Origin: Longibacter salinarum | GTDB lineage: Bacteria > Bacteroidota > Rhodothermia > Rhodothermales > Salinibacteraceae | Assembly (NCBI RefSeq): GCF_002554795.1 | Contig: NZ_PDEQ01000006.1 | Coordinates: 62,001 to 126,000, forward strand | Direction of reading: 5' to 3' | DNA: 64,000 nt | Shown: in pieces, positions 6,755-38,733 of the stretch | Layout: each line of letters opens with the position of its first letter | Position numbering within the stretch: the stretch's first letter is position 1 | Program-made: the position numbers and the translations under genes | The notes under the pieces: generated by a model | Database searches by the model: none | The model's input: the letters and a program-made list of their open reading frames with translations, nothing else | What the model was told of the DNA's origin: nothing

Positions 6755-6786
6755 AAGCTATCGGGCACGATGAAGAAGCCCGAGTC

Positions 6787-10303: not shown

Positions 10304-10559
10304 GAGGTAGCGGTGTTGCATCCGGGAGGTACGTAGAGCAAGCAGGACATTCTGAGCATGGCTGCCTACAGCGTTGGTGTCTACCAACGGCTCGACCGGG
10401 AAGTCGATTCATCGTGCAACCGAGGTTGTAGGTGCACCTCGTACGGACGTAACAGCTTAGTGACTCGTCAGTATCGAGTGCGTCAAGATTCGGTGGACCC
10501 CACTTATTATACGACAAGTTGTTCTACCACGCGACATCAGGAAGGGGAAGTATGACAGA

Positions 10560-10820
10560 GAGACCCCAAGGACCAAGCGCACACCCTTCGGCCGAACACG
10601 ATCGAACCACCGAGTAATCAGAGATGAAATGCCGGCATTTCAACCCGCCGGATCGACACGTCCGCCCTTTAACGACCCGAGGTGATCGGGACGGTAGGCA
10701 CAAGTTGCCGGGGCGGAACGAGCGTACTTTAGCGCCGAGTTCGGCCTAAAGTACGGATGGAGTGAGAGAAGAGCGAGGCGCCGGGACGGTACGGGTCCCA
10801 GCGCCTCGTTCTATTTTACT
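10560..10820 (+). ncRNA. Candidate structured RNA ending in an intrinsic terminator
   Basis: No gene fits the plus strand here, yet the region holds three good hairpins in order. These are a perfect 16-nt palindrome GAAATGCCGGCATTTC (10625-10640), a 10-bp stem CGTACTTTAG/CTAAAGTACG with an inner GCCGA/TCGGC helix (10723-10755), and a terminator stem (10775-10807) with a T-rich tail. A TATTATAC sequence just upstream (about 10505) could be a -10 element. It does not look like RNase P RNA, tmRNA or a riboswitch I know. The boundaries are estimates. Confidence 0.4.
10775..10817 (+). terminator. Intrinsic terminator of the candidate RNA
   Basis: The stem GAGGCGCCGGGA / TCCCAGCGCCTC has one mismatch and a short loop, and is followed by GTTCTATTTT. 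No protein gene on the plus strand ends within 4 kb upstream, so it must serve an untranslated transcript or stop antisense reading. Confidence 0.65.
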
Positions 10821-11068
10821 CCGGTTCTTTGCGGCTCGTCCGGTCGCTGCTGACATGCCGACAGCTGTTCAGCCGCTTCAATGTAAACTGCGAATCCGGT
10901 CGTTTCTCCGTGTCATCGGCCTACCATAAGAAGGGGGGACCGTATTTCAGGTCATAAGCAAAATGGGCCGTCCGTCAGGCCGCTTCGATCGGCGTCTAGG
11001 CCCTTGCGTACCGAATGACAACAGAGGCGCTGTGTCATGCTGCCTGGTGAGGCCGGACAAATGGCAGG

Positions 11069-12346: not shown

Positions 12347-12352
12347 GTCCGT

Positions 12353-19782: not shown

Positions 19783-20889
19783 ATGGATTTCATTGAGGAG
19801 ATTGCCTCGTTGTCCTCTCGCGCGATCAGCCAGATTGATCATCTGGAAACGGAGGAGGGGACGAAAAATGCCCTTGTCATGCCCTTTATCAAAGCGCTCG
19901 GGTACGACCCTTTTGATCCGACGGAGGTCGTTCCGGAATTCACGGCCGACGTAGGTACTAAGAAAGGAGAGAAAGTCGACTACGCGATCAAGTTAGAGGG
20001 TAGGCCCGTGATGCTTTTTGAGTGTAAGCATGCCGGTGCACCGCTCGACCCAGATCACGCCGATCAGCTTTTCAGATATTTCCACGTCACGGAGGCAAAA
20101 ATAGGGGTCCTTACCAACGGATTAACGTATAAATTTTTTACTGATCTGGAGCAAGAGAATAAAATGGACGAGCGTCCTTTCTTGACGTTCAACCTTCTTC
20201 ATGTTAATGAGAACAAGGTCGGCGAACTCAAGCGTCTTCGAAAATCGTCGTTCGACCTGGATGACATGCTATCTGCGGCACACGACCTGAAGTATCGAAA
20301 AGCACTTTTAGAATATTTACAAACCCAGTGGGATGAGCCGGAGCAAGAATTCGTTCGATTTATGACGGGACAGGTCTACGACGGACGAATAACAAAAAAC
20401 GTTCGGTATCAATTTAGCGAGATCGTCCATGATGCTCTTCGTCAGTTCGTGAGCGACAAAATCCGTGGACGCTTAAATACAGCCTTAGCTGAAGAAGAGG
20501 CAGTTACTGACGACGCATTCAATGAAGAAGACGGTGTCGAATCCGAAGAACGAGTTGACTCACTACCAGACGGTGTAATTGCTAAGGATGGAGACGTTGT
20601 GACAACAGAGGAAGAGATGGAGGGCTTCCGCATTGTTCGCGCGATTATGCGAGAGGTAGTCGACGTTGATCGCGTCGTGTCTCGAGACGTGAAGTCGTAC
20701 TTCGGGATTCTTCTCGATGACAATAACAGGCAGCCAATCTGTCGGCTGAGATTTGAAACGGCACAAAAGTACCTCGGCCTGTTCGACGAGGAAAAGAACG
20801 AGGAGCGAGTGCCTATCGACGCTGTTGATGAAATCTACGATCACGCAGATAAGCTACGCCAAACCGTCCACTTCTACGATACGGAATAG
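19783..20889 (+). CDS. Orphan HsdR_N-type restriction endonuclease-like protein
   Basis: 368 aa. The N-terminal half is the type I restriction R-subunit nuclease domain: TEEGTKNALVMPFIKALGYD, then KVDYAIKLEGRPVMLFECK. D67 and E80-x-K82 form the PD-(D/E)XK core, with a later Gln95. There is no helicase, and no hsdM or hsdS is adjacent. The C-terminal part (EGFRIVRAIMREVVDVDRVV) resembles the tail of the COG4748-like stand-alone proteins. Base composition is more AT-rich than neighbours, and the gene sits beside tRNA-Leu, so it may be acquired. A role in DNA defence or repair is inference. Confidence 0.75.
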   Translation: MDFIEEIASLSSRAISQIDHLETEEGTKNALVMPFIKALGYDPFDPTEVVPEFTADVGTKKGEKVDYAIKLEGRPVMLFECKHAGAPLDPDHADQLFRYFHVTEAKIGVLTNGLTYKFFTDLEQENKMDERPFLTFNLLHVNENKVGELKRLRKSSFDLDDMLSAAHDLKYRKALLEYLQTQWDEPEQEFVRFMTGQVYDGRITKNVRYQFSEIVHDALRQFVSDKIRGRLNTALAEEEAVTDDAFNEEDGVESEERVDSLPDGVIAKDGDVVTTEEEMEGFRIVRAIMREVVDVDRVVSRDVKSYFGILLDDNNRQPICRLRFETAQKYLGLFDEEKNEERVPIDAVDEIYDHADKLRQTVHFYDTE

Positions 20890-22066: not shown

Positions 22067-23059
22067 ATGGCTGTCACCATTCGTGATGTGGCAAGCGAGG
22101 CCAATGTCTCGGCGACAACTGTCTCCCGGGTCTTCAACCACACAGACCTCGTTCGGCCGGAAACGGTCGAGCGCGTGCGCCGAATCGCTGACGAAATGGG
22201 GTATCAGCCGAACGCGACGGCCAAGAGTCTGAGTCACGGTCGCACGGACGCGATCGGTGTTGTTCTGCCGGCGCCGCACGGTGAGTTTTTCTCTGAAGTG
22301 ATGCGCGGGATCGATGAGGTGGCGCAGTCCTCTCATTATCATCTGCTGATCTCGAGTTCGCACTACAATCGCGATGAAGCGGAGGCGGCTATGCGTGCGC
22401 TGAGCGGCCGTGTGGATGGGCTGCTGGTCATGACCACGCACGTGGAGGCAGACGATATCCTGCAGACGCCGCGCCCGGATGTGCCGGTTGTCTTCATGAA
22501 CAGCTCCAACGTCGGGCCGGATCATGACGCATACGACATCGAAAACCGGGAGGGAGCCTACAAGGCGACGAAGCACCTCATCGAGCGCGGGTACAGAAAC
22601 ATCGGCGTGATCACGGGGCCGCGCAACAGTCTCGACGTGCAGGAGCGGCTGTCCGGATTCCGTGACGCGCTGTCTGACAGCGGGCGAAATCCGTCCGAAG
22701 CGCCGGTAATCGATGGCGACTTTACCCGCGCGAGCGGATACGAGGCGGGGAAACAGATTCTGGAGCTCGATCCGCGTCCCGATGCCTTCTTCTCGTGCAA
22801 TGATTACATGGCGATCGGGGCCATTTCGGCATTTCAGGAAGCAGGAATAACGACGCCGGGCGACATCGCAATCGCCGGCTTTGACGACATTCCGAGCGCG
22901 CGCTACGCATCTCCACCGCTGACGACGGTTCGCGTGCCGGTCTTCGATCTCGGCCGGCGGGCTGCGCAACGGCTGCTCGATCGAATGGCTGGTCACTCTG
23001 AGATGCCCATCGAGGAAGCAACTCTGGGTTCCGAACTCGTCATTCGATCGAGTACGTGA
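22067..23059 (+). CDS. LacI-family transcriptional regulator of the glucan locus
   Basis: 330 aa. The N-terminus is a LacI helix-turn-helix: TIRDVASEANVSATTVSRVFNH, then a hinge helix region GYQPNATAKSL. A periplasmic-binding-protein-like effector domain follows (AIGVVLPAPHGEFFSEVMRG, and FFSCNDYMAIGAISAFQE). It lies just upstream of susC on the same strand. A perfect LacI-type palindrome is placed between them (23583-23602), so it most likely controls the susC-to-symporter genes, with glucose or a beta-glucooligosaccharide as effector. The effector identity is inference. Confidence 0.9.
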   Translation: MAVTIRDVASEANVSATTVSRVFNHTDLVRPETVERVRRIADEMGYQPNATAKSLSHGRTDAIGVVLPAPHGEFFSEVMRGIDEVAQSSHYHLLISSSHYNRDEAEAAMRALSGRVDGLLVMTTHVEADDILQTPRPDVPVVFMNSSNVGPDHDAYDIENREGAYKATKHLIERGYRNIGVITGPRNSLDVQERLSGFRDALSDSGRNPSEAPVIDGDFTRASGYEAGKQILELDPRPDAFFSCNDYMAIGAISAFQEAGITTPGDIAIAGFDDIPSARYASPPLTTVRVPVFDLGRRAAQRLLDRMAGHSEMPIEEATLGSELVIRSST

Positions 23060-23602: not shown

Positions 23603-23802
23603 GTTTCGACGATTGTGGTCGGACGGTTCCTGCACTCCTGCTGACTCGTCGATTGAGTCGACGGCGTGCCATCCTCAACCGCCGAAGGTGGAAGCGCTTT
23701 CTGCGGCGGAAGATCGGGCTCACGCTGGATCTCCTCCGTCGGCTCTCCGCAAATTCGTCAGCGAATACGAGACCTATCCCACGCTCCGTATCCACCGTTC
23801 TC

Positions 23803-26800
23803 ATGGTCTGGAAGAATCTGCACCTGATCCTTGGCCTTTTTCTCGCCGGTATGATTGCTTTGCCGGAGGCGGCGACCGCGCAGACGGGCACAATTGTCGG
23901 TACCGTGGTCGAGGAAGCCACCGGTGAACCGCTGCCTGGCGTCAACGTCGTCCTCGTCGGCTCTCAAAAGGGGTCGTCGACCAACGTCGATGGAACGTAC
24001 ACGATTCCGGGTGTCGATCCCGGGACGTACGATCTCCGGGCGTCCTTCATTGGATTCCGCGCTCAAACTCGTGCAGATGTTCAGGTTGTTGACGGCGAAA
24101 CGACGGAGGTGGACTTCTCGCTTGCAGAAGGCTCGATTGGCCTTGATGAACTGGTTGTCGTCGGGTACGGGGAGCAGCAACGCCAGGAGCTGACGACCTC
24201 CGTTTCCTCCATTTCGGAAGAGGCCATTGCGGACCGGGCGCTCACAAATCCGGCGGAGGCGCTTCAGGGGACGGTGCCTGGTCTCGTTGTTACGCAGAAC
24301 TCCGGCAGTCCCGGGCAGGGGTTTAGCGTGCGGATTCGAGGTATTGCGTCGACGGGCAGCAACGAGCCGCTGTATGTCGTCGACGGTCTTCCGTTGCCGG
24401 ATCGACCAGAGTATCTCAACCCGAACGATATCGAATCGATCGACGTGATCAAGGATGCGGCAGGCGCAGCCATCTATGGCACGCAGGGAAGCAACGGCGT
24501 CATCCTCATCACAACGAAAAAAGGGACGTCGGGCGAGACGCGAGTAAATTTCAACGCTCAGTACGGTGTCTCCGAGGCGCCGCGGCAGATCGACATGCTT
24601 GAAGCCGCGGAATACGCAACGTTACGGAACGAATCCGCAATTAACGCCAACCGAACGCCTGTTTACCCCAATCCGGCGTCGCTTCGCGGGCAGTCAACCA
24701 ACTGGCAGGATCAAATTTTCCAGACGGGTGCCTTCCAGAAGTACACACTCGGAGTGTCCGGTGGCGGCGACGGGTTCAATTTCCGGGTCAGCGGTGATTT
24801 CACGGATGAAACCGGGATCGTCAAAACATCGGACTATCGCCAGATCAATTTCCGCCTGAATACCGAATATACGCCGGAGTCGGGCCTCTTTACCGTAGGC
24901 GAGAATCTTTCGATCGGTCGGGATTTCAGAAATGTCGTTCCGGAGAATGACGACGTAAACAACTTCATGATCTCGACGCTCCAATTCTCTCCGACGGAGC
25001 CGGTCCGTGATCCAGATCTGAATACGACGGACAACTACACATTCAGCCAGTTCGGCAATAACGCTCTCAATCCGGTCGCAGTGCTCGACTTCAACAATTC
25101 GGAGGATCGGTCGACGCGCCTCGCGGGGAACGTGTTTGCTGATATCATGCCGATCGAAGGTCTGAGTCTTAAATCGGACGTTGGCGTCGACTTGCGTTAC
25201 GGCGACAATTACTCGTTCACACCGACATACTCGGTCAGCCCGGAGTTCTCGAACTTGACAAACTCCGTAAGCAGGTACTCTGACCGGCGCTCGTCCTTGA
25301 TTTGGTCGAACACAGCCACATATTCCCGCATCTTTGGGACGAAGCACGACCTCACCGTGCTCGGCGGCACGTCAGCGGAGTGGAACACCTACGAGTTCAT
25401 TAGTGCGAACACGACCGGATTGCCCAACGACGATCCATCGCTTCGGTACCTGCAGCAGGGAAGCGCAAGTCAGGGCGCGACAGGCGATCTGGATCGTTCG
25501 CGACTCGTTTCGTACTTCGGTCGCGTGAATTACGGTTACGATAGCCGCTACCTTGCTACCGTAGTTGCCCGGTATGACGGTTCGTCCCGGTTCGGGGAAA
25601 ACAACCGATTTGGTTTCTTTCCATCCTTCTCGCTTGCCTGGCGCGTGTCCGAGGAGGCCTTCATGGAATCGGTCGAATTTGTTGACGACCTGAAGTTGCG
25701 CGGCGGCTACGGCATCAATGGAAACGATGCAATTGGAGATTTCCTCTTCCTCACGGGGATTGAGGGCTTCCGAAACTACATTACCGGCACAAACAACACG
25801 GTCTTTCCAGGGGCCACGGTTGCTGGATCTGGTAACCCGGACCTCAAATGGGAGGAATCGAGGCAGACGACGGCGGGCATTGACGCGTCGCTTTTCGATT
25901 CGCGCCTCACCGCCACGGCTGACTTCTTCGTCAAGAACACGAAGGACCTACTCCTCAACGTGCAGCAGCTCTCCACGAGCGGTGCGCAGCGCTTTGGACA
26001 GGTTCAGAACGCGGGAGAGGTTCAAAATATCGGGTTCGAGTTTTCGCTTGGCTGGGCCGATAACCTGTTTGATGGTGACCTGACGTACGAGATCAACGGA
26101 AATATTGCACAGGCATCGAATGAGGTGAAGAGCCTTGGTGCGACAAGCGACATTGAAGGGGGAGCCTACCGGCAGGGACTCATTACCCGAACGGTTCCTG
26201 GTGTGCCCATTGGTTCGTACTACGGCCACGTGACCGACGGCATTTTCCAGACGCAGGAAGAGGTCGATGATGCCGCGTTTCAGGACGCCGGCACGGCGCC
26301 CGGCGACATTCGCTTCCGTGATCTAAATGACGACGGCGTGATCAATGACGCCGATCGGACCTTTCTCGGCAATCCATTTCCTGACTTCACGTACGGCCTC
26401 AACGGCAGCGTGGCTTTCCGCGGATTCGACTTCAGCTTTTTCCTGCAAGGAGTCCAGGGCAACGAGCTCTTCGCGGCCTACGAGTACTACACGCTGGGTT
26501 CGGGCATCTTCAATCTTGAAGAAGATGCTCTGAACCGCTGGACGGGACCCGGGACGAGTAACGATGTGCCGCGCCTGACTGTGTCCGACCCCAACCAGAA
26601 TACGCGGATCTCCGACCGATATGTTCGGGACGGATCGTATCTACGACTCAAAAATGTGACGCTCGGCTATACCGTGCCCCAGCGTCTCTTCGAATCGATT
26701 GGCGCCGACGTTCGCAAGGCTCGCATTTTTGTCGGCGGCCAGAATCTGCTGACGTTCACCGGTTACAACGGGCTCGACCCGGAGATTGGTGAACGTGGCG

Positions 26801-26880
26801 GCGTACTGGATCGCGGCATCGATCGAGGTGTCTATCCGCAGGCGCGAACGTACACCGTTGGCATCGACTTTCGATTCTAG
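23803..26880 (+). CDS. SusC/RagA-type TonB-dependent outer-membrane transporter
   Basis: About 1025 aa from the ATG at 23803, which gives a normal signal peptide (LILGLFLAGMIALPEAATAQ). Next comes a carboxypeptidase-D-like domain (GTIVGTVVEEATGEPLPGVN), then the plug start ELVVVGYGEQQRQELTTSVS and SVRIRGIASTGSNEPLYVVDG. The rest is a 22-strand-type barrel ending TYTVGIDFRF, with the terminal aromatic residue of outer-membrane proteins. It pairs with the adjacent SusD to import oligosaccharides using TonB energy. The extra 50 in-frame codons upstream are Arg-rich and not part of the protein. The leader after the operator is about 200 nt. Confidence 0.93.
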   Translation: MVWKNLHLILGLFLAGMIALPEAATAQTGTIVGTVVEEATGEPLPGVNVVLVGSQKGSSTNVDGTYTIPGVDPGTYDLRASFIGFRAQTRADVQVVDGETTEVDFSLAEGSIGLDELVVVGYGEQQRQELTTSVSSISEEAIADRALTNPAEALQGTVPGLVVTQNSGSPGQGFSVRIRGIASTGSNEPLYVVDGLPLPDRPEYLNPNDIESIDVIKDAAGAAIYGTQGSNGVILITTKKGTSGETRVNFNAQYGVSEAPRQIDMLEAAEYATLRNESAINANRTPVYPNPASLRGQSTNWQDQIFQTGAFQKYTLGVSGGGDGFNFRVSGDFTDETGIVKTSDYRQINFRLNTEYTPESGLFTVGENLSIGRDFRNVVPENDDVNNFMISTLQFSPTEPVRDPDLNTTDNYTFSQFGNNALNPVAVLDFNNSEDRSTRLAGNVFADIMPIEGLSLKSDVGVDLRYGDNYSFTPTYSVSPEFSNLTNSVSRYSDRRSSLIWSNTATYSRIFGTKHDLTVLGGTSAEWNTYEFISANTTGLPNDDPSLRYLQQGSASQGATGDLDRSRLVSYFGRVNYGYDSRYLATVVARYDGSSRFGENNRFGFFPSFSLAWRVSEEAFMESVEFVDDLKLRGGYGINGNDAIGDFLFLTGIEGFRNYITGTNNTVFPGATVAGSGNPDLKWEESRQTTAGIDASLFDSRLTATADFFVKNTKDLLLNVQQLSTSGAQRFGQVQNAGEVQNIGFEFSLGWADNLFDGDLTYEINGNIAQASNEVKSLGATSDIEGGAYRQGLITRTVPGVPIGSYYGHVTDGIFQTQEEVDDAAFQDAGTAPGDIRFRDLNDDGVINDADRTFLGNPFPDFTYGLNGSVAFRGFDFSFFLQGVQGNELFAAYEYYTLGSGIFNLEEDALNRWTGPGTSNDVPRLTVSDPNQNTRISDRYVRDGSYLRLKNVTLGYTVPQRLFESIGADVRKARIFVGGQNLLTFTGYNGLDPEIGERGGVLDRGIDRGVYPQARTYTVGIDFRF

Positions 26881-26971: not shown

Positions 26972-28564
26972 ATGATTGTTTCCGCGACTTCGACGGTCTT
27001 ACGCCAGATTACTCGTCGCCTTTCAGCGCTCGTTGCTGGAGTGTTGCTCCTCACGCTTGGGCTTGTTGCCAGCGGCTGCGATAGCATGCTCGATATCGAG
27101 CCACAGGGCGAGCAGACCTCCGCTAACTTTTTCCGTACCCCTGAGGATGCCAATCGCGCCCTTGCCGGCGTCTATTCCGCGATTCAGCAGCAGAAGCGCC
27201 TCACATACCAGGGGGCGCCCGAGTTTCTCGCTGGCTACGACATGGTATTCGGTAGCGTTGCTTCCGACGACTCGTTTAAAGGCGGCGAGAGCCGAAACGA
27301 CCAGCCGGACATCGATGACATTCAGACGTTCACGGTCGACCCGAACAACCTCTACATCGCGAAGATGTGGAGCAGTCTCTATGAGGCGGTGACCCGGTCC
27401 AATCGTCTGCTCGACCGTGTGCCCGACATCGAGATGGATCCGGAGGAAAAGGCGGACATTCTGGCCGAGGCCCGATTCCTCCGAGCATACGCCTACTTTT
27501 ACCTCCTCCAGGCGTTTGGAACAGAGCCCGAAACGAATAATGGGCCAGGCATCGTCCTCGTCAACGACGTGGTCACGATCGGTGGAGCCGATAAGCCGCG
27601 TTCGCCCGAACCCGAGGTGTGGACGCAGATCGAAACAGATCTTCAGGCAGCGATCAACGAGCTCCCGACGAAGAGCGAGCGTGGTGCAGAACAGTACGGT
27701 CGAGCTACGACAGGGGCGGCGAAAGCGCTTCTCGTCAAGGCCCACATCTTTCAGGAAGATTGGCCTGCAGCAGAACCGCTGGCTCTGGAGGTGATCAGCT
27801 CCAGTGAGTACCGACTCGAGCCGGACTTTTCCAGCATCTTCCGCCTGAGCGGAGAGCACGGGCCGGGTTCGATTTTCGAAATCAATTACGCGACCCTCCC
27901 GAATCAGGTCGAGGGATACTACGGCAACGTGTATCAGGCCAGTCGGTCAACGTGGGGCTTCGGTTTCAACAACCCGACGGAGGATCTCTACCAGGCGTTC
28001 GACAGCAACGACCCCCGGCGTGACGCAACGATCATCGAGCCGGGTGAGCAGATGCCCGACGGCACCGTCGTCGCCGGAGGAAGCAGCCGATCGGGATATC
28101 ACAACGAGAAAATATGGATACCGCAGTCTGAGTATCCGCAGGCACAGGGCATTGGCGTGTTTGCCGGCCCAAGCAACGTTCGGTATATCCGCCTCGCGAA
28201 TGTTTTACTCTGGCACGCGGAGGCCGCAGCCGAGAATGGTAACCTGCCAGCCGCTCGTGAGTCGCTGAACCGCGTGCGAGCTCGCGCTCGAGATGACGAC
28301 GACAACCCCAATAACGATCCAGCTGGCGTGCTGCCGGACATTACCACGACCGATGCACAGGAACTGCTGGAGGCAATCTACCGGGAGCGGCGTCTGGAGC
28401 TTGCGATGGAGGATCTGCGCTTCTTTGATCTCGTCCGGCAGGGACGCGCACCGGAGGTCCTCGGTGATGCAGGCTTCGATGCGGGAACGCACGAGCGCAT
28501 GCCGATTCCTCAACGTGAGATTGATTTGAGCGACGGCGTTCTGACGCAGAATCCAGGCTATTAG
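26972..28564 (+). CDS. SusD/RagB-type surface glycan-binding lipoprotein
   Basis: 530 aa. The signal ends at LVASGC (lipidation Cys about 36). It then reads DIEPQGEQTSANFFRTPEDANRAL, the standard SusD N-terminus. TPR-like helices (EARFLRAYAYFYLLQAFG) and the C-terminal RRLELAMEDLRFFDLVRQGR are family signatures. It caps the SusC barrel and binds the polysaccharide fragment. It lies 91 nt after susC in the same operon. The target is best guessed as beta-glucan, from the enzymes that follow. Confidence 0.93.
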   Translation: MIVSATSTVLRQITRRLSALVAGVLLLTLGLVASGCDSMLDIEPQGEQTSANFFRTPEDANRALAGVYSAIQQQKRLTYQGAPEFLAGYDMVFGSVASDDSFKGGESRNDQPDIDDIQTFTVDPNNLYIAKMWSSLYEAVTRSNRLLDRVPDIEMDPEEKADILAEARFLRAYAYFYLLQAFGTEPETNNGPGIVLVNDVVTIGGADKPRSPEPEVWTQIETDLQAAINELPTKSERGAEQYGRATTGAAKALLVKAHIFQEDWPAAEPLALEVISSSEYRLEPDFSSIFRLSGEHGPGSIFEINYATLPNQVEGYYGNVYQASRSTWGFGFNNPTEDLYQAFDSNDPRRDATIIEPGEQMPDGTVVAGGSSRSGYHNEKIWIPQSEYPQAQGIGVFAGPSNVRYIRLANVLLWHAEAAAENGNLPAARESLNRVRARARDDDDNPNNDPAGVLPDITTTDAQELLEAIYRERRLELAMEDLRFFDLVRQGRAPEVLGDAGFDAGTHERMPIPQREIDLSDGVLTQNPGY

Positions 28565-28652
28565 GCGAATCGAGCCCCTGGCGCTAGATGGGCTTCCGGT
28601 GCGCTACCTCTTCTCCTCGGCATGATTGCTTTATCCCTATTGCTCCGCTGAC

Positions 28653-31229
28653 ATGTATATCGATCGTAGTACGACGACATCACCACTCTGGACGCTGCTT
28701 CTTGGGCTCCTCCTTAGCGTACTTACCGTCTCGACGGTAAGTCTGCTTTCCGGTTGTGACCAGGGAGGCATGAACGACGACGGCGATAACTTCATCGCCC
28801 CGAGCACGTCCCGCGTCGGGTTTGAGGTTCGACCCGGGGCGACGGATACGACACAGCAACTGACGCTGACCTATACGTCCCTGGACGTTCGCCCCGAGCC
28901 GGGGGATGTCCCGACGCCGTTTACGGTCGAGCTTGTCGAGGAGACGGGAGATCCTTCGAATGGGACGTCGGTGTTTGACGTCACATTCTCGCCGCCTCAG
29001 GATAAAGCGACCTTTACCGAAAAGCTCATCTTTTCGGCAGGGGGGCGGTACGTGACCATTCAACTCTTTGGCTTCGTCGGCTTCAATGATGAGTTGATCA
29101 CCGACTACGCAGGCTCTGGTATCGTCGATGACTTTTTTGGATTCAATGGTCTCGAAGGTGCGAGCAGCATCGATGGACAACTCTCTGTGCCAGGTTCAGG
29201 TGCGGGCGGCCCGGGCGTCTTCCCGGGCGTAAGCCATGCGCTCAGTGAGACGGTGGACTTTGGACAAACGCCCGTACTCGTCGCTCGAATGAGGGTCTCG
29301 GCGGACAGCCCGGGGCCGGCGATCGTGCGTGCGGCACTCAACCAGGAGGGCGACCTGCCGGATGCCAACAGCAGTGCGGCGCCGCTTATCAAGGAGGTAC
29401 CCGCAGACGGTGAATACGCCGACTACTATTTCGATTTCCGCGATCTCTTCGTGCAGTTCGACGGCCAGCCCGTGGACGCGACCAATATCACCGAGGTCGT
29501 TCTGTTGGTCAACGATGGCGGTTCGCTGGACTTCCTCGGGCGTTCGGACACGTTCACAGGTACCCTCGAGATTGATCGTCTTGCCCGTCGTCCAGACATA
29601 CCCGGTGAAGAGGGGGGCGGCAACGCTGCTCCGAATGCCAACTTCATTTTTGCACCGAGCCAGCCGGCGGTCGGGGAGACGGTTAACTTCACCGATCGAT
29701 CGAGTGACGACGGCATGATCGTATCGCGCGACTGGGACTTCGGTGATGGCACGACGGCAACCGGTGAGACGCCGTCTCATGCTTACGGTGCGCAAGGCGA
29801 TTATACCGTCACGCTCACGGTGACGGATGACGAAGGCGTTACCTCCACATCGACGCAGACGGTTTCCGTATCGGACGGTTCGAACGGAGGAAGCACGTTC
29901 CGCGATGACGGCGACGGTGATGGCCTCATCCTGTATGACGATTTCGAAGATGGTATTCAGGCCGACGAATATGTCACGTTTCAGGGTCAAGGAGCCACCA
30001 TCGGCCTCTCCGAGAGCAGTGACGCAGCTATGGACGCGGGAGGAATGGCGGCCATAGCCGCCAACGTTGATGGGGGAGGCGGCGGTGGGTTCGCCGGATT
30101 CGGCAAAGAGTACGGCAGTGGCCAAGACGGCGTCGATGTCTCTGATCTCGGCAGCGACCCATATTTCACGATGTACGTGAAGTCGGATGCTGCTTCAACG
30201 TACACCCTGGAGATCAACCTCCAGGAAGATCAAGACGGGAACGATCAGTACGATGGCAGCGGCGCCACAGACGACGAGTTCCAGTACGACTACGTGGTAG
30301 AGCCGAGTGCCTCGGGATACACGCGCATCAGCGTTCCGCTGAGTGCATTTCAGGATGATAACGACGTCAACAACGGGGGGGATGGACAGCTTTCTTCCCG
30401 GATCGCAAATGTGATCTTCGCCATCGGCAACCTGCCGGCTGAATCATTCACGCTCACGATCGACGACATCATCTTCTCGGACCAGGATCTCGGAGCCGGG
30501 GGCGGCACCGTCCAGAGTGCGTGTGGAAACGACTACGAGCTGTTTTTCGAGGACAACTTCGACGCCCCGAACGACACGTTCTGGGATCGCGGGAACGCGA
30601 CATTCAACGGAAACCTCGCGACCTTCCGTCCAGACAACATTACGTACGAGGATGGAAAGATGGTGCTGAACCTGAAGAAAGAGCAGTTCAACGGAAAACC
30701 GTACACAGGTGCTGAACTCCGCACAGACAATCAGACCGGATTTTACAGCTACGGGTGCTACGAAGTGCGAATGAAGTCGGCCGGCCCCAGCGGTACCGTT
30801 TCGTCCTTCTTTGGCTACCGATACAACCCCTGGCAAGAGATCGACATCGAGATCGTGGGTAAAAACAATCGCTCGATGCTGACCAACATCTACTACAATG
30901 ATGGCCCAGAGGGGGCGGCCAATAACGATGCGTACCAGGTGCCGCCGTTTCCCGAAGGTGTGGGTCTGAGCTACGATGCGTCACAGGAATTCCACAACTA
31001 CGCCTTTGAGTGGACGCCCGGAGAAATCAAATGGTACCGCGACGGTCAGCTCGTGAAGCAGGCGACGGTCGAGGGGGCCAGCTCGAGTGAGATTCCGAAC
31101 CTCGACATGCAAATCATGATGAACCTCTGGGTCTCCAACTCGCCGAGTTTCGCAGGAGAGATCGATGACAGCAATTTCCCGGTCCGTGCTGAGTATGACT
31201 GGGTGCGCTTCTATCGACCCGCTAACTGA
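28653..31229 (+). CDS. Multidomain GH16 beta-glucanase lipoprotein (CBM-like, PKD, GH16)
   Basis: 858 aa from the ATG at 28653. The lipobox is LLSGC. In order: a beta-sandwich N-terminal part; a PKD domain (FIFAPSQPAVGETVNFTDRS, WDFGDGTTATG, TVTLTVTDDEG; about 335-415); a CBM-like domain (LYDDFEDGI to FTLTIDDIIF; about 425-610) homologous to the two repeats of the next gene; then GH16 (about 630-858). The active site is EIDIE (E729, D731, E733), the type without a beta-bulge found in lichenases. It probably cuts beta-1,3-1,4- or beta-1,3-glucan at the cell surface. It lies 88 nt after susD. Confidence 0.88.
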   Translation: MYIDRSTTTSPLWTLLLGLLLSVLTVSTVSLLSGCDQGGMNDDGDNFIAPSTSRVGFEVRPGATDTTQQLTLTYTSLDVRPEPGDVPTPFTVELVEETGDPSNGTSVFDVTFSPPQDKATFTEKLIFSAGGRYVTIQLFGFVGFNDELITDYAGSGIVDDFFGFNGLEGASSIDGQLSVPGSGAGGPGVFPGVSHALSETVDFGQTPVLVARMRVSADSPGPAIVRAALNQEGDLPDANSSAAPLIKEVPADGEYADYYFDFRDLFVQFDGQPVDATNITEVVLLVNDGGSLDFLGRSDTFTGTLEIDRLARRPDIPGEEGGGNAAPNANFIFAPSQPAVGETVNFTDRSSDDGMIVSRDWDFGDGTTATGETPSHAYGAQGDYTVTLTVTDDEGVTSTSTQTVSVSDGSNGGSTFRDDGDGDGLILYDDFEDGIQADEYVTFQGQGATIGLSESSDAAMDAGGMAAIAANVDGGGGGGFAGFGKEYGSGQDGVDVSDLGSDPYFTMYVKSDAASTYTLEINLQEDQDGNDQYDGSGATDDEFQYDYVVEPSASGYTRISVPLSAFQDDNDVNNGGDGQLSSRIANVIFAIGNLPAESFTLTIDDIIFSDQDLGAGGGTVQSACGNDYELFFEDNFDAPNDTFWDRGNATFNGNLATFRPDNITYEDGKMVLNLKKEQFNGKPYTGAELRTDNQTGFYSYGCYEVRMKSAGPSGTVSSFFGYRYNPWQEIDIEIVGKNNRSMLTNIYYNDGPEGAANNDAYQVPPFPEGVGLSYDASQEFHNYAFEWTPGEIKWYRDGQLVKQATVEGASSSEIPNLDMQIMMNLWVSNSPSFAGEIDDSNFPVRAEYDWVRFYRPAN

Positions 31230-31472
31230 GACCGTACGACGCACTGAGCGTCGTAGCGTCCTGCTGCTGCGCTTTTCGGGCTATTGCAGTCCGTTTCTGT
31301 ATGACCGAGAGAGCCACCGGACTGGCCCTCTCACCTTCTGGTATCCCCGGTCGGTTTCCCACACCCCATTGTGGCGATCGGGAATGTATTCGAGAGTGGC
31401 CTTTCACCAAACGACCATGAGCCAATGATTCGATCCGTTACCACGCCCCGATTTCGCACTCGACGGTCATCC

Positions 31473-33350
31473 ATGATGGTCGGGGTTCTCGAAAAGAGCA
31501 TGCGCGGTGGCATCTCTGTACTTGCCATGCTCTTTTGCCTGACGTTTTTCGCAGCGACGGCAAGTGTCGCCCAACCAACGGTTGACGTATTTGACGACTT
31601 TGAGGATGACGACGTCTCGGAGTACTTCACGTTCGCCGGCGAGACGGGCGTCACGCTGGGCACGGGAACGGACGTACCCGCGCAGAACGGTGGGGCCGCG
31701 GCGCTGACGGCTGATTTCGCAGCCGGTGACGGAAGCCAGGGCGGGTTCATCGGTGGATTTGGTAAGAACGATATCAACGCGGACATCTCCAGTTATTCGC
31801 TACCCAGACTGAATTTCTATTACAAGTTCAACGCTGGTAGTGCCGAATCTGCGTTTACGATCGAGGCCAACATACAGGAAGATGAAGACGGCGACGGCTC
31901 GTACGATCCGAATGTAGATGACGAATTTCGTCTCTTTATCCGAGTGCAGGGAGACTCCGACTTTGCTTTGGCCTCGGCTGAGGTCGAGAGAATGCTGGTC
32001 AATCAGAACGGCCAGGCCGGTGGAGACGGCGTTTTTAACGGCACCGTTGCAGCGGTTGTCTTTTCGATCAACGAGGCAACGCCGGACAACGGAAGCGGCG
32101 ACCCAGAGGGTGGTCAACTTGTCATCGATTATGTGAGCTTTTCCGATGGCGAACCCATCGAGCCGAATGCAGCTCCTGGTATGACCACGATCTTCGATGA
32201 CATCGAAGATGATGATGTGTCGGAATACTTCACGTTTGCTGGCGAGACCGGGGTCACGCTTGGTACAAGTGGAGATACACCCCCGGAGAATGGAGGCGCC
32301 GTGTCGCTCGCTGCAGACTTTGCGTCCGGCGACGGAAGCCAGGGCGGATTTATTGGTGGTTTTGGGAAAAACGATATCAACGCCGATCTCAGTGGCTTTT
32401 CGTCGCCGCGATTGAACTTCTACTACAAGTTCAACGCAGGAAGCCCGAATACGTCGTTTGTCCTTGAGGCGAATGTGCAGGAAGATGAAGACGGCGACGG
32501 CTCATACGACCCGGCGGTCGATGACGAATTCCGGCTCAAGCTACGCGTCCAGGGAGCGTCGTCGCTCCAAGAGGGAGCGCCCTCGTACCAGTTGGCATCT
32601 GTTGAGATCGATAATCTACAACGCAATCAGAACGGTCAGGCCGGCGGGGATGGCGTTTTCAACGGGACCGTCGCAGGCGTTGTCTTCTCCATCACGAGTG
32701 CTACGCCTGACGATGGTGTCGGCGATCCTGAGGGCGGACAGCTACTTCTGGACGCGATTAGCTTCACTGCCGACGGACCGCTCCCGGTCGAACTCGCGGG
32801 CTTTGATGTACGCCTGGATGGCACGGACGCAATCCTCTCCTGGCAAACGCTGACGGAGACGAATAATGCCGGCTTCGACGTGCAGGTCGCATCTGGAGGC
32901 GATGGGTTTCGCACAAATGGCTTCGTGGATGGCGCGGGCACGACCTCCGAAGTCCAGCGGTACCAATACCGGGTTCGAGACCTTTCGCCGGGTGAGCACC
33001 GCTTCCGTCTCCGCCAGGTCGACGTCGATGGTGGTTCTACCCCTACCAAAGAGCTGACGCTGTCGATCGACATGGCTTCCTCGTTCACGCTCCTCCGAAA
33101 TACGGCCAACCCGATCCAATCCGGTGATATGGCGCGTGTACAGTACCTGGTGAAGGAACGAGAGCCCGTGACGATCGAGCTGTTCGACATTCTCGGCCAG
33201 CGTATTCGAACGGTCGCATCGGGGGTGTCGACGCCCGGGGCGGCGAAAACGGCGCGTATTTCCACTGCCGACCTCGCGAGCGGCGTCTACTTCCTTCGGT
33301 TTGAAGGTCGCAGCTTCTCGCGCACGGAAAAACTCACCATCGTTCGTTGA
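31473..33350 (+). CDS. Secreted protein with two CBM-like repeats and type IX sorting tail
   Basis: About 625 aa. The signal peptide is SVLAMLFCLTFFAATASVAQ; the exact start is uncertain (31425, 31473 or 31500). Two copies of one domain follow, about 31584-32145 and 32185-32772. Each starts DDxEDDDVSEYFTFAGETGV, includes GDGSQGGFIGGFGKNDINAD and EDEDGDGSYDP, and ends GDPEGGQL. The C-terminus has a linker (LPVELAGFDVRLDGTDAILS) and a Por-secretion domain (TIELFDILGQRIRT, ASGVYFLRFEG, EKLTIVR). No catalytic module is visible, so it is probably a secreted glucan-binding protein. A 243-nt gap before it may hold its own promoter. Confidence 0.82.
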   Translation: MMVGVLEKSMRGGISVLAMLFCLTFFAATASVAQPTVDVFDDFEDDDVSEYFTFAGETGVTLGTGTDVPAQNGGAAALTADFAAGDGSQGGFIGGFGKNDINADISSYSLPRLNFYYKFNAGSAESAFTIEANIQEDEDGDGSYDPNVDDEFRLFIRVQGDSDFALASAEVERMLVNQNGQAGGDGVFNGTVAAVVFSINEATPDNGSGDPEGGQLVIDYVSFSDGEPIEPNAAPGMTTIFDDIEDDDVSEYFTFAGETGVTLGTSGDTPPENGGAVSLAADFASGDGSQGGFIGGFGKNDINADLSGFSSPRLNFYYKFNAGSPNTSFVLEANVQEDEDGDGSYDPAVDDEFRLKLRVQGASSLQEGAPSYQLASVEIDNLQRNQNGQAGGDGVFNGTVAGVVFSITSATPDDGVGDPEGGQLLLDAISFTADGPLPVELAGFDVRLDGTDAILSWQTLTETNNAGFDVQVASGGDGFRTNGFVDGAGTTSEVQRYQYRVRDLSPGEHRFRLRQVDVDGGSTPTKELTLSIDMASSFTLLRNTANPIQSGDMARVQYLVKEREPVTIELFDILGQRIRTVASGVSTPGAAKTARISTADLASGVYFLRFEGRSFSRTEKLTIVR

Positions 33351-33464
33351 TGCTTGATGCAGCGTGCGCGGCTCGCTCTAGAATTGAGAGCGGGCCGCCG
33401 CATGGTTTCCGCGCGGTGGCACCCCATCGCGATCGTGATCGATCCTTTTCTCTGCTGGATACAC

Positions 33465-36008
33465 ATGACGCGCCCCTTCCGACGGACCTTCGCCCTCTCG
33501 TTTTCGCCCATGATGTTCGTATTCGCTGTAATCGGGGTTTCCCTTTCCGTTCTCGTCCTCGGATGCGCACAGTCGCAGTCGACGGGGCCGATGCCTACGG
33601 TCGGTGGCGACGGCGCGATGGGCTCGAATGAGGTCAGCCAAACGGGACAGCGCGCGGACGCAGAGGGCGTCACCATGCCGATGGATCGCACCGTGTATCT
33701 TGTGACAGCCGACGAGGAGGCGGTCACCGTGGATGAACGATCGAGCGGCGCCTTCGCAGAGCGCATCATGTCCAGCTCCGCCGATGCAGATTCAGCCCGC
33801 GTCGAGTCCCGGATTGACCAGCTCCTGTCCAACATGACACTGGAGCAGAAGGTGGGGCAGATGACGCAGCTAGAGCTCGGAATGGTCACTCGCTCCGACA
33901 ATTTTCCCGAGGCCATCGATTCGGAGAAGCTCAGGCGTGTCATCCGAGACCACCATGTAGGGTCCATTCTAAATGTCGTCAGTGCCGCCTATCCGCTCGA
34001 GCACTGGCACGAGATTATTCGGGCGATTCAGGAGGAGGCCATGTCCGGTGAGTTGGGAATACCGGTCCTCTACGGGATCGATGCCGTACACGGGGCGAAC
34101 TATACGCAGGAGGCGGTCCTCTTTCCACAAAGCCAGGGCATGGCCGCGACGTGGAATCTGCCGCTTGCCGAAAAGGCAGCGGCGATTACGGCGCGAGACG
34201 TACGATCCAGCGGCATCCCCTGGAATTTTGCTCCGGTGCTCGACGTCGGCCGGGATCCACGGTGGCCGAGGTTGTACGAATCGCCGAGTGAAGATCCGTA
34301 TCTGACGTCGATGATGGGTCTCGCCGCGCTTCAGGGTCTGCAGGGCACAGATCTATCAAGCCCAGATCACGTAGCGGCCTGTCTAAAGCATTTCATTGGA
34401 TACTCGGGATCCGATAGCGGGCGGGATCGAACGCCGGCACAGATCCCTGAAATCGAGCTGCGGGAAACGTATCTTCCGCCATTTCGGGATGCGGTTGAGG
34501 CCGGAGCAGCCTCCATCATGGTCAATTCTGGCGAGGTTAGCGGCGTGCCGGTGCATGCCAGTCGTTATCTGCTCACTGACGTCCTCCGCGATGAACTCGG
34601 CTTCGAGGGTGTGGTCGTAACGGACTGGCTCGACGTGAAAAAGCTCGTCAGCCTGCATCGCGTGGCGGCGACGGAACGTGAGGCGACTCGGATGGCGATT
34701 GAGGCCGGCATCGACATGAGTATGGTGCCGTCTGACATATCCTTCATCGAGCATACGCTGGACCTTGTCCGAAGCGAGCAGATAAGCGAAGAACGCATCG
34801 ATGCCTCGGTCCGGCGCATTCTTCGAATGAAGCTCCGTCTGGGACTCTTTGAGGATCCACTTGCAGGCATGCGCTCGGCTGAAAACGTTGGCACTCAAGA
34901 AGATCGTGAGGTTGCCCTTCAGGCCGCACGTGAGTCCCTCACGTTGCTCCGCAATCGCGACGATGTTCTCCCTCTTTCGGACCGCCAACGGGTTCTCGTG
35001 ACCGGCCCTACGGCTCACTCGATGCAGTCTCTGAATAACGGCTGGACGTACACCTGGCAGGGAGGGGGGCTGTCGCAGGATATGTTTCACGAGGGGCGTC
35101 CAACCATTATGGAGGCTGTTCGAGAGCGCGTTGGCCCGGACCGGATGACATATGTGCCGGGAGCGACGTTGACCGATGCAAAGGGCCTCGACCGAGCTGT
35201 TGTCGCCGCCCAAGAGTCTGACGTCGCTGTCGTAGCCCTGGGTGAAGGCGCGTACGCCGAAACCGCGGGCAACATTCGCAATCTGATGCTCCCGGACGCG
35301 CAGCGCACCCTGCTGCGTCGCATTGCCGCCACGGGTACCCCCGTTGTGCTGGTTCTTGCGCAGGGACGCCCACGCACGCTCGGGACCGTCCATGAAGGAG
35401 CGGACGCTATTCTCGCAGCCTACAATCCAGGGCCGGAGGGAGGACAGGCGATCATGGAGGTTCTGTACGGGGACGTGAATCCGTCGGGTCACCTGCCGTA
35501 CACGTATCCGGCGACGCCTTCCGGGTACGCGACGTACGATCATAAGCCGAGCGAGCGGCTTGCGGAAGACTTTGGAATGGACGGTGCCGATCCACTATTT
35601 GCCTTCGGTGACGGCATGTCCTACACGTCCTTTGCCTATAGCGATCTGCACGTACGTCCAGCTCTAATCGAGACATCGAACCTGCAGGCTGGAGAGCAAA
35701 TCGAGGTCGGGGTGACAATCGAAAACACGGGAGACCGGCCGGGGAAGGATGTCATTCAGCTCTATGTGACGGATGTCGTCGCCACGGTGACACCCGCAGC
35801 ACGGCGCCTGAAACGATTTGCAAAAGTTGATCTCGCGCCGGGCGAACGGCGATCGATCACGTTTACGCTATCCCAAGACGATCTCAGCTTTATCGGACGA
35901 GATGGCGAGTCGGTCGTTGAGCCCGGAGAGTTTCGGATTCAGATTGATGCCCTCAACGAGCAACTACGCGTGACTGGACAGCCGCTGCAACTTTCCTCCT
36001 CGGAATAA
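33465..36008 (+). CDS. GH3 family beta-glucosidase lipoprotein
   Basis: About 847 aa from the ATG at 33465. The lipobox is SVLVLGC. The GH3 N-terminal barrel shows TLEQKVGQMTQLELGM, GIDAVHGANY and KHFIGYSGSDSGRDRT. The nucleophile Asp sits in VVVTDWLDV (D387). The C-terminal alpha/beta domain and the fibronectin-III-like domain (VIQLYVTDVVATVTPAARRL) are intact. It releases glucose from beta-1,3- or beta-1,4-glucooligosaccharides, most likely in the periplasm. It is the exo-acting partner of the two GH16 enzymes and lies 114 nt after the preceding gene. Confidence 0.92.
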   Translation: MTRPFRRTFALSFSPMMFVFAVIGVSLSVLVLGCAQSQSTGPMPTVGGDGAMGSNEVSQTGQRADAEGVTMPMDRTVYLVTADEEAVTVDERSSGAFAERIMSSSADADSARVESRIDQLLSNMTLEQKVGQMTQLELGMVTRSDNFPEAIDSEKLRRVIRDHHVGSILNVVSAAYPLEHWHEIIRAIQEEAMSGELGIPVLYGIDAVHGANYTQEAVLFPQSQGMAATWNLPLAEKAAAITARDVRSSGIPWNFAPVLDVGRDPRWPRLYESPSEDPYLTSMMGLAALQGLQGTDLSSPDHVAACLKHFIGYSGSDSGRDRTPAQIPEIELRETYLPPFRDAVEAGAASIMVNSGEVSGVPVHASRYLLTDVLRDELGFEGVVVTDWLDVKKLVSLHRVAATEREATRMAIEAGIDMSMVPSDISFIEHTLDLVRSEQISEERIDASVRRILRMKLRLGLFEDPLAGMRSAENVGTQEDREVALQAARESLTLLRNRDDVLPLSDRQRVLVTGPTAHSMQSLNNGWTYTWQGGGLSQDMFHEGRPTIMEAVRERVGPDRMTYVPGATLTDAKGLDRAVVAAQESDVAVVALGEGAYAETAGNIRNLMLPDAQRTLLRRIAATGTPVVLVLAQGRPRTLGTVHEGADAILAAYNPGPEGGQAIMEVLYGDVNPSGHLPYTYPATPSGYATYDHKPSERLAEDFGMDGADPLFAFGDGMSYTSFAYSDLHVRPALIETSNLQAGEQIEVGVTIENTGDRPGKDVIQLYVTDVVATVTPAARRLKRFAKVDLAPGERRSITFTLSQDDLSFIGRDGESVVEPGEFRIQIDALNEQLRVTGQPLQLSSSE

Positions 36009-36091
36009 CGGACCCGATGCTGTTCCGATGACGGAGTAAGGCGATACGGCTGACGATTAACATCTATGGTGTGCGGAGGAATACTCGACAC

Positions 36092-36982
36092 ATGAAACGC
36101 CAGACGCTACTTCTTCTCGCTCTGCTTCTTAGCGGGCTATTTCCTGTTGGTTGTCTAGATGCACCCGAGTCGAAATCGGGGGGGACGTCTTCGTCGGGTT
36201 CGGCAACGAACTCGGAATCATGGCCAGAAGAGCCCACGTGGATTTCTGTGTGGCAGGACGAATTCGACGGGTCGATGCTGGATACGACAAAATGGAGCTT
36301 CGACCTGGGTGGAAACGGCTGGGGTAATCAAGAGCTCCAGTACTACACGGATCGCCAGGAGAATGCACGTGTCGATGGCGAGCATCTCATCATTGAGGCG
36401 AAAAAGGAAGACTATAGCGGCAACGGGTACACGTCGGCCCGCCTGAATTCGAAGGAAACGTGGACCTATGGTCGCTACGAGATCCGTGCAAAATTGCCGA
36501 GCGGTCGTGGTACGTGGCCCGCGCTCTGGATGCTCGCCGAGAACGATGTCTACGGCGATGCCTACTGGCCGGACAACGGCGAGATCGACATCATGGAGCA
36601 TGTCGGATACGATGAAGGCGTCATTCATGCGACGGTCCATACGGAAGCATACAACCACATCCAGGGAACGCAACGCGGCAAATCAAAGACGGTGTCCGAT
36701 GCGACCTCTGCCTTCCACGTCTACAGCATCGAATGGGCGCCGGACGAGGTGCGAGCCTACATCGACGGCACCCAGTACTTCAGTTTTGCGAATGAGCGAC
36801 TGTCCAACCCCTCCGCCGGGTACGCGGAATGGCCATTCGACCAGCCCTTCTTCCTGCTGATGAATATCGCTGTCGGTGGGACCTGGGGTGGTGCACAGGG
36901 TGTGGACGATAGCATTTTCCCGCAGCGGATGGAGGTCGATTACGTGCGTGTCTACCAGCCGGAATCGATCGTCAATCCGTAG
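36092..36982 (+). CDS. GH16 endo-beta-1,3-glucanase (laminarinase-type) lipoprotein
   Basis: 296 aa from the ATG at 36092. The lipobox is GLFPVGC. A short Ser/Gly linker leads to a single GH16 domain: WQDEFDGSMLDTTKWSFDLGG, YEIRAKLPSGRGTWPALWML, and the active site GEIDIMEHVG (E164, D166, E169). The extra residue in ExDxxE marks the beta-bulge type common in laminarinases. It has WAPDEVRAYIDG and ends VDYVRVYQ. It differs from the first GH16 in this operon, so the two probably attack different bonds or chain parts. It lies 83 nt after GH3. Confidence 0.92.
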   Translation: MKRQTLLLLALLLSGLFPVGCLDAPESKSGGTSSSGSATNSESWPEEPTWISVWQDEFDGSMLDTTKWSFDLGGNGWGNQELQYYTDRQENARVDGEHLIIEAKKEDYSGNGYTSARLNSKETWTYGRYEIRAKLPSGRGTWPALWMLAENDVYGDAYWPDNGEIDIMEHVGYDEGVIHATVHTEAYNHIQGTQRGKSKTVSDATSAFHVYSIEWAPDEVRAYIDGTQYFSFANERLSNPSAGYAEWPFDQPFFLLMNIAVGGTWGGAQGVDDSIFPQRMEVDYVRVYQPESIVNP

Positions 36983-37029: not shown

Positions 37030-38733
37030 ATGGAGGAAATCGAACAGCTCGCCCTGGGCTTAACGGACTGGGCCGTCATCGTCGGATACTTTTTGATTAT
37101 CTTCGGCGTCGCGGCCTGGGCCACCATCAAGGAGCGCCAGGGGACGGAAGACTCGGCGGACTATTTTCTCGCCGGGAGAAACGTCGGCTGGTTCGTCATC
37201 GGTGCCTCTCTCTTTGCGTCGAACATCGGCTCGGAGCACCTGATCGGTCTCGCCGGCACCGGAGCGAGTAGCGGGGTGGCGGTCGGCCAGTTCGAGGTGC
37301 TAGCGTCCATCATTCTGCTCTTGCTCGGATGGGTGTTCGTTCCGTTCTACGTCAAGAGCGGCGTCTTCACGATGCCGGAGTTTCTCGAACGCCGCTATTC
37401 CTCGGGCGCCCGATGGTACCTTGCCACGATTTCGATCATAGCGTACGTCCTGACGAAGATCTCCGTCACCATTTTTGCGGGTGGCGTCGTCTTCACGGCC
37501 ATTGGCGTCCCATTTTGGACGGGGGCACTGATCGTCGTCGGCGTTACCGGGGCGTACACGATCCTTGGTGGCCTGCGCGCCGTGCTTTACACGGACCTCG
37601 TTCAGGTTTTCGTCCTGATCGGTGGAGCCATCGCGGTGACTGTCATCGGTATCAGTCAACTCGGCGGGTGGGGTGAGCTTCAGGCGGCGGCTGGACAGGG
37701 CTTCTTCGATATGTGGAAGCCGATGTCGCATCCGAACTTCCCGTGGACGGGCATCATCTTCGGCGCTCCGATTCTGGGCGTGTGGTACTGGTGTACCGAT
37801 CAGTTCATCGTTCAGCGTACCCTCTCGGCCAAGAACATCGATAACGCGCGCCGGGGAACGATTTTCGCCGGCTGGCTCAAGCTCCTGCCGGTGTTCATTT
37901 TCGTGATTCCCGGCATCGTGGCCTACGCGCTGAATCAGCAGGGTGCGCTGCAGCTTGCCGACCCGGACCAGGCGCTTCCCGTTCTCGTTGGGGCTCTGCT
38001 TCCGGTCGGATTGCGCGGGATCGTCGTGGCCGGACTTCTTGCGGCACTGATGTCTTCGTTGTCGAGTGTTTTCAACTCGTGCTCGACGCTCGTGACGTGG
38101 GATGTCTACCGCGAGCTTAAGCCGGACGCATCCGAACGCCAGCTTGTGTGGGTCGGGCGCCTGTCGACGATCGTGCTCACGCTCCTCGGCCTCGCCTGGA
38201 TTCCGTTGATGGATAGCATCAGCGGCCAGCTGTACACCTATCTGCAGAGCGTTCAGGGATACATCTCGCCGCCGATTGCGGCTGTCTTCCTGCTCGGTAT
38301 CTTCTCCAAGCGTGTCAATGCACGCGGCGCGATGGCGTCGCTTCTGTCTGGCTTCGTGATCGGAGCGCTCCGTCTCGTTATGGAGCTGGTCAACGGTCCC
38401 GCGGGCGATAGTTTACCCTCGGGCACGCTACTGGAGACGTTCGCTGAAATGAACTTCCTGCACTTCGCATTCTTCCTCTTCGTCGTCTGCGTGCTCATCC
38501 TGATTGGCGTCAGTATCCTGACGGGTGCACCGAGCGGACACAAAGTGGCGGGGCTCACATTTGCAACTGCGGACGAGGATGTCGCCGGCCTGAGCGAGGA
38601 GGCGCGCGCAGATATTGCCGTCGCCACCGCCTCGTCCGACGGAGATGATGATGGTGCCTGGCAGCGCCTCGACGTTCAGTTTACCATCGCACTGCTCGTT
38701 GCCGTCGCGGCCATCTGGATTTACTTCAGCTAG
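37030..38733 (+). CDS. Sodium:solute symporter (SSS/SGLT family), likely glucose uptake
   Basis: 567 aa with about 14 membrane helices. DWAVIVGYFLIIFGVAAWA and TEDSADYFLAGRNVGWFVIG with ASNIGSEHLIGLAG are SGLT signatures. Later LRAVLYTDLVQVFVLIGG and a SSLSSVFNSCSTLVTWDVYR segment match Na+-binding regions. Its position as the last gene of the glucan operon (47 nt gap) argues that it carries the glucose freed by GH3 across the inner membrane with Na+. The substrate is inferred from context. Confidence 0.88.
   Translation: MEEIEQLALGLTDWAVIVGYFLIIFGVAAWATIKERQGTEDSADYFLAGRNVGWFVIGASLFASNIGSEHLIGLAGTGASSGVAVGQFEVLASIILLLLGWVFVPFYVKSGVFTMPEFLERRYSSGARWYLATISIIAYVLTKISVTIFAGGVVFTAIGVPFWTGALIVVGVTGAYTILGGLRAVLYTDLVQVFVLIGGAIAVTVIGISQLGGWGELQAAAGQGFFDMWKPMSHPNFPWTGIIFGAPILGVWYWCTDQFIVQRTLSAKNIDNARRGTIFAGWLKLLPVFIFVIPGIVAYALNQQGALQLADPDQALPVLVGALLPVGLRGIVVAGLLAALMSSLSSVFNSCSTLVTWDVYRELKPDASERQLVWVGRLSTIVLTLLGLAWIPLMDSISGQLYTYLQSVQGYISPPIAAVFLLGIFSKRVNARGAMASLLSGFVIGALRLVMELVNGPAGDSLPSGTLLETFAEMNFLHFAFFLFVVCVLILIGVSILTGAPSGHKVAGLTFATADEDVAGLSEEARADIAVATASSDGDDDGAWQRLDVQFTIALLVAVAAIWIYFS

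Follow-up and report, generated by a model that had tools for sequence, protein, structure and literature searches.

Genes and domains of the locus

The window analysed here, a 64,000-nucleotide stretch of Longibacter salinarum contig NZ_PDEQ01000006.1, contains a typical beta-glucan utilisation locus with the gene order LacI-SusC-SusD-GH16-two-copy protein-GH3-GH16-SSF (Table 1). The catalytic motifs of its two GH16 enzymes, EXDXE and EXDXXE, correspond to a division among GH16 subfamilies, in which licheninases (GH16_21) carry the first and laminarinases (GH16_3) the second (PMC6827312). A mixed-linkage glucan locus of B. ovatus comprises GH16 and GH3 enzymes together with two SGBPs (PMC8612152). 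Elsewhere in the window (19783-20889) lies an open reading frame of just 368 residues, in which the N-terminal domain of a type I restriction HsdR protein is recognisable.

Between the first GH16 gene and the GH3 gene lies a protein in which, as the original prediction had held, no enzyme domain was found by Pfam or NCBIfam. It contains two domains of approximately 195 residues, D1 and D2, that are 72.5% identical over 193 residues (BLASTP E 1e-100; alignment score 746, where shuffled sequences reached at most 85), and the predicted recurrence at 32185-32772 of a domain located around 31584-32145 was thereby borne out; the shared cores that had been named, GDGSQGGFIGGFGKND and EDEDGDGSYDP, are both present in D1 and D2. 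D1 and D2 arose from an old duplication, and purifying selection acts on each of them (synonymous sites saturated, at pS 0.74; pN 0.16; dN/dS about 0.06). Neither copy contains a tryptophan.

The Por-secretion tail expected at the C-terminus of this protein scored 28.9 bits against TIGR04183 (Por_Secre_tail; cut-off 23) and 24.9 bits against the Pfam version of the same model, slightly under its cut-off of 27, and a similar C-terminal region is encoded at about 50 other places in the genome. The type IX secretion machinery is represented in that genome by SprA (1714.7 bits, above its cut-off), and a PorU-like protein scored 180 bits, under its cut-off of 420. Judged from its tail, the two-copy protein may be either free or cell-attached.

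The further proposal that a third, more diverged copy resides within the upstream GH16 protein was likewise upheld: this domain, D3, is a true homologue that is approximately 37% identical to both D1 and D2 (D1/D3 E 8e-11; D2/D3 E 4e-13; z 17-21 against 500 shuffles). Kinship of D1-D3 with the N-terminal beta domain of the same GH16 protein was also considered and found to be unsupported (z -0.4 to 1.3). That beta-rich region (window 29040-29597) has no Pfam match, and is 49-65% identical to its counterparts in syntenic loci and in a lipoprotein without GH16 from genome G309.

Table 1. Coordinates of the locus genes and of the domains within them (positions in the window).
Feature	Position	Strand	Remarks
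LacI-family regulator	22067..23059	+	
SusC-like TonB-dependent receptor	23653..26880	+	
SusD-like glycan-binding lipoprotein	26972..28564	+	
GH16 lipoprotein (N-terminal beta domain, PKD, D3, GH16)	28626..31229	+	LLSGC lipobox by inspection
PKD domain of GH16 lipoprotein	29622..29870	+	
CBM11-like domain copy D3	29916..30488	+	modelled
GH16 catalytic domain, EXDXE (EIDIE at 30837)	30534..31226	+	best NCBIfam match BGlucanaseBglS
Two-copy protein, open reading frame	31371..33350	+	open from GTG 31371; likely starts ATG 31473 or 31500
Sec signal peptide MRGGISVLAMLFCLTFFAATASVA	31500..31571	+	translation inspected by eye; lipobox not seen
CBM11-like domain copy D1	31575..32150	+	aa 69-260 of ORF 31371-33350
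CBM11-like domain copy D2	32172..32774	+	aa 268-468 of ORF 31371-33350; modelled
Linker domain before tail, LPVELAGFDVRLDG...	32781..33086	+	recurs in dozens of T9SS proteins of the same genome
Type IX secretion type A sorting tail (TIGR04183)	33135..33341	+	NCBIfam match
GH3 beta-glucosidase	33354..36008	+	NCBIfam best: exo-beta-1,3/1,6-glucosidase and BglX, both below cut-off
Second GH16, EXDXXE (EIDIME at 36581), laminarinase type	36071..36982	+	
Sodium:solute symporter	37030..38733	+	

Sequence affinities and predicted fold

No Pfam or NCBIfam model matched any of the three copies at its curated cut-off; D2 searched alone against Pfam gave no match at E 1, and NCBIfam provided no relevant match for any member of the family. 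The two-copy protein reached 13.8 bits against CBM11 (PF03425; cut-off 27) and the GH16 protein 17 bits against CIA30 (cut-off 24), while no CBM_11 domain was found above cut-off among 146 genomes of the host's class. The sub-threshold matches nonetheless all belong to one fold group (CBM_11, CIA30, SGBP_B_XBD, CBM30 and ExoP_C), within which 9 of 22 family members had CIA30 as their highest, though weak, Pfam match (best E 1.7e-4), and a single protein, the three-copy L017, exceeded the CIA30 and SGBP_B_XBD cut-offs, through the summed scores of its copies. When PDB sequences were searched, the whole two-copy protein returned nothing at E 10 and an 11-member profile returned one spurious match only; a 22-member profile returned CIA30 (7zkq, E 0.003) and the CBM11 of Clostridium thermocellum, CtCBM11 (1v0a/2lro, E 0.006-0.007).

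Structures of D2 and D3 were modelled with AlphaFold2, the former with medium confidence (pLDDT 72, pTM 0.73) and the latter with a pLDDT of 81 and a pTM of 0.83. Both are predicted to form the beta-sandwich that had been anticipated, and for both the best match in the PDB is CBM11 (1v0a/6r31), with a Foldseek E of 6e-6 and a VIA Z of 14.0 over 157 residues for D2, and an E of 5e-9 and a Z of 17.4 over 163 residues (20% identity) for D3. CIA30 (7zkq) ranked second (Z 13.6 for D2 and 16.5 for D3), followed by agarase CBM-like domains, CBM30, CBM28 and the PDB entry 8qx6; MAM domains and ephrin receptors, which are beta-sandwiches that do not bind sugar, were also among the fold matches. D2 and D3 share the same best match, and D1 differs from D2 at only 27% of positions; this is indirect evidence that the copies have a common fold, whereas structures that failed to superpose would have counted against the original prediction.

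On its modelled fold, the domain is thus best described as a predicted remote module of the CBM11/CBM30/CIA30 type, and more particularly as CBM11-like. The earlier view that it lies outside the named CBM families holds to the extent that no curated model claims it, but not as regards its remote membership of this group. What is new here is a sequence family, related to CBM11, for which Pfam and NCBIfam have no curated model, and the occurrence of such a domain in enzyme-free, type IX-exported formats; the family, being set apart by Pfam and NCBIfam models alone, may fall within an existing CAZy family.

The closest structural relative, the CBM11 of Clostridium thermocellum Lic26A-Cel5E (1v0a, 6r31, 6r3m; PF03425), which binds beta-1,3-1,4-glucan, resembles the domain over most of its length in both models, displays weak similarity at the profile level (E 0.007), and is similarly fused to beta-glucanases; it differs in having only 12-20% sequence identity to the domain described here, which carries a long, invariant motif (LE.N.QED.DG....DDEF). 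CIA30/NDUFAF1 (PF08547; 7zkq) is comparable as the second-best fold and most frequent weak Pfam match, but is a mitochondrial assembly factor with no link to glycans. Zuhlke et al. are said to have described novel laminarin-binding CBMs of marine Bacteroidota in 2024, and the PDB entry 8qx6 bears the title 'Novel laminarin-binding CBM X584'. Modules of this kind share with the present domain a beta-sandwich architecture, a setting in multimodular Bacteroidota proteins and a connection to laminarin; the fold of 8qx6 agrees with the models (Z 11.2 for D2 and 12.5 for D3) but ranks under CBM11, and the 22-member profile did not return this entry at E 10.

Relatives, formats and phylogeny

Relatives of the domain were sought in one genome per species and in genome contigs, and were found mainly in the host's order, with additional members in Croceivirga (Flavobacteriaceae) and on one gammaproteobacterial MAG contig; a search of a plasmid collection gave no match. 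Weak profile matches in other classes of Bacteroidota (E 1e-6 to 1e-8, mostly in reading frames of 830-910 residues) were excluded as members, and look like general representatives of the same fold superfamily.

The relatives occur: (i) fused to GH16 domains with an EXDXE motif (L012, L013, L014, L016 and L021) or with an EXDXXE motif (L015, L022 and, in three copies, L017); (ii) in a PKD lipoprotein that lacks GH16 (L018); and (iii) in enzyme-free proteins that carry one or two domains and a T9SS-type tail recognised by eye (L019, L020, L023, L026, L027 and L028). Both uses originally envisaged for the module, as an appendage of enzymes and as non-catalytic T9SS cargo, are therefore found in other genomes. 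Two-domain T9SS proteins are encoded in G179 and G340 as well; the tandem domains of the G179 protein (L019/L073) are nearly identical, which indicates a very recent or homogenised duplication. The L017 protein of Croceivirga thetidis (positions 6354-13766) is 2471 residues long and combines GH16, CBM6, the three copies of the module, three malectin domains and a T9SS tail.

Three of the loci with EXDXE fusions (L013, L014 and L016) retain the order LacI-SusC-SusD-GH16-GH3 in the absence of the two-copy gene, which is also missing from a syntenic locus in G309 (LacI-SusC-SusD-x-GH3-GH16), where the slot of the GH16 lipoprotein is occupied by a PKD-module lipoprotein without GH16; the two-copy gene is therefore not essential to the locus. 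In G340 a two-copy T9SS protein adjoins a GH16 enzyme that is 50% identical to the GH16 domain of the window, and in G231 a GH16 of this kind is itself fused to the module, which is situated between the catalytic domain and a T9SS tail.

In a phylogenetic tree of the domains, D1 and D2 were joined with full support (100/100) and grouped with domains attached to EXDXXE GH16 enzymes from Croceivirga, G254 and the gammaproteobacterial MAG (split 98/92), whereas D3 fell with other GH16 lipoproteins and was not the sister of D1 and D2. The tree rejected an origin of D1 and D2 as recent duplicates of D3. The branch leading to D1 and D2 is long (0.85), and their placement could for that reason reflect, in part, long-branch attraction.

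Conserved residues and the putative ligand site

Positions that are invariant or nearly so across the family (in D2 numbering) comprise D9, F22, G63, E99, N101, Q103, E104, D105, D118, E119, F/Y120, Y/W/F139 and D194, several of which make up the acidic LE.N.QED.DG....DDEF motif; F22 is a phenylalanine in all 22 members. A second motif, P..F.DDN, is kept in 18-20 of the 22 but is missing from D1 and D2, which deviate at P145, D151, D152 and N153. The expectation of a conserved aromatic face was accordingly met in part, in that aromatic positions are kept, but D1 and D2 have neither a tryptophan nor the P..F.DDN motif.

The ligand site of CtCBM11 is presumably formed by Tyr22, Tyr53, Asp99, Arg126, Tyr129 and Tyr152. 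Profile alignment places F22 on Tyr22 and the first aspartate of DDEF on Asp99, while Arg126, Tyr129 and Tyr152 are not kept in the family. The loop from P145 to N153 aligns with the Arg126-Tyr129 loop, which we assume carries ligand contacts in CtCBM11. The ligand of D1 and D2 may differ from that of other members, because they have lost the P..F.DDN motif and branch with laminarinase-type modules; the sequence difference in the DDN loop itself suggests a different ligand for these two copies.

Proposed function

The two-copy protein is probably a secreted or surface-attached, non-catalytic and bivalent beta-glucan-capture protein that resembles SGBP-B. Sugar binding by the module would follow from the fold in combination with its fusion partners and the surrounding locus, and we likewise infer the identity of the ligand, the bivalency and the attachment of the protein to the surface. 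The sorting tail and SprA, the purifying selection on both copies and the gene content of the B. ovatus locus also speak for such a role. Against it, the same beta-sandwich fold occurs in proteins that do not bind sugar (CIA30, MAM domains and ephrin receptors), D1 and D2 lack both tryptophan and the P..F.DDN motif, several syntenic loci do without the two-copy gene, and the D2 model is of medium confidence. Once exported by Sec, the protein would be carried across the outer membrane by the type IX system, which would also process its tail. The tandem CBM11-like beta-sandwiches would then bind chains of mixed-linkage beta-1,3-1,4-glucan or of laminarin-type beta-1,3-glucan, with two weak sites per chain giving rise to avidity, and the polymer would be held near the surface GH16 lipoprotein (with its homologous module) and near SusD/SusC, as is done by SGBP-B elsewhere.

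SGBP-B proteins of Bacteroidota loci include CHU_1279, a bimodular CBM-like cellulose-binding protein from Cytophaga hutchinsonii (PMC12016534). Like these proteins, the two-copy protein consists of two tandem CBM-like beta-sandwiches, is non-catalytic, and belongs to a polysaccharide locus, in which its gene has SusC/SusD and glycoside hydrolase genes as neighbours. Unlike them, it displays no lipobox on inspection and instead ends in a T9SS tail, and its two domains are 73% identical to one another and homologous to a module on an enzyme of the same locus.

A serious competing account, to which we assign somewhat less than an even chance, is that the tandem domains bind a glycan other than that of D3 (for example laminarin, or an algal or halophile exopolysaccharide) and act as a specificity-extending partner. 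The grouping of D1 and D2 with EXDXXE-GH16 modules, apart from D3, and their departure from nearly all other members in the DDN loop both point in this direction, although the long branch of D1 and D2 tempers the first of these; the locus, moreover, contains both EXDXE and EXDXXE enzymes, the substrates of which differ in characterised subfamilies (PMC6827312). A related but rather doubtful proposal is that the domain constitutes a new CBM11-related CBM family, marked by LE.N.QED.DG....DDEF and deployed in three formats (as an enzyme appendage, as a PKD lipoprotein that replaces the enzyme, and as free single or tandem T9SS cargo), in which the tandem copies, having lost the DDN loop, have thereby re-specialised to a glucan not bound by the enzyme-attached copy.

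It is improbable that the two-copy protein is instead a structural or adhesive beta-sandwich of the CIA30 or MAM type, engaged in protein-protein or cell-surface contacts and without a glycan ligand. The high rank of CIA30 and the presence of MAM domains among the fold matches, together with the absence of tryptophan from D1 and D2, would fit such a protein, and the invariant acidic motif could serve as a metal or contact site; however, the module has been fused repeatedly to GH16 in separate lineages, is always found beside beta-glucan enzymes, and has CBM11 as the first-ranked match for both models. It is most unlikely that the protein is what remains of a decayed GH16-module-T9SS enzyme, with catalytic domain and binding both lost: the G231 arrangement and the loss of otherwise conserved residues from D1 and D2 could be read in that manner, but the frame is intact, dN/dS between the copies is about 0.06 (with synonymous sites saturated), and T9SS proteins with the module alone are encoded in other genomes as well.

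If the module does bind glucan, as the capture role supposes, then a set of proteins with unannotated domains in Rhodothermota and some other bacteria would become interpretable, the locus would offer a natural comparison of one module on an enzyme, on an enzyme-less lipoprotein and in free or attached tandem cargo, and the CBM11 fold would be seen at work in proteins that lack an enzyme and leave the cell by the type IX route. Specialists would find in this a useful extension of a family rather than a surprise.

A second gene cluster containing the module

A conserved cluster that includes a one- or two-copy T9SS protein was observed in four genomes (L073, L075, L076 and L079, from G179, G340, G219 and G231, respectively), with a LacI gene directly upstream of that protein in L075, L076 and L079. 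The window's SusC and SusD were not found in these stretches by tblastn, and the cluster is possibly a glucan system without SusCD. The module protein is followed by a protein of approximately 700 residues without a Pfam match, then by one of approximately 600 residues with a weak outer-membrane-barrel match, and further on by a lipoprotein of approximately 345 residues, again without a Pfam match. In its far part, where the locus reaches that distance, the cluster encodes a lipoprotein that combines CBM30 and SGBP_B_XBD domains, along with a TIM-barrel protein of the GH2 type.
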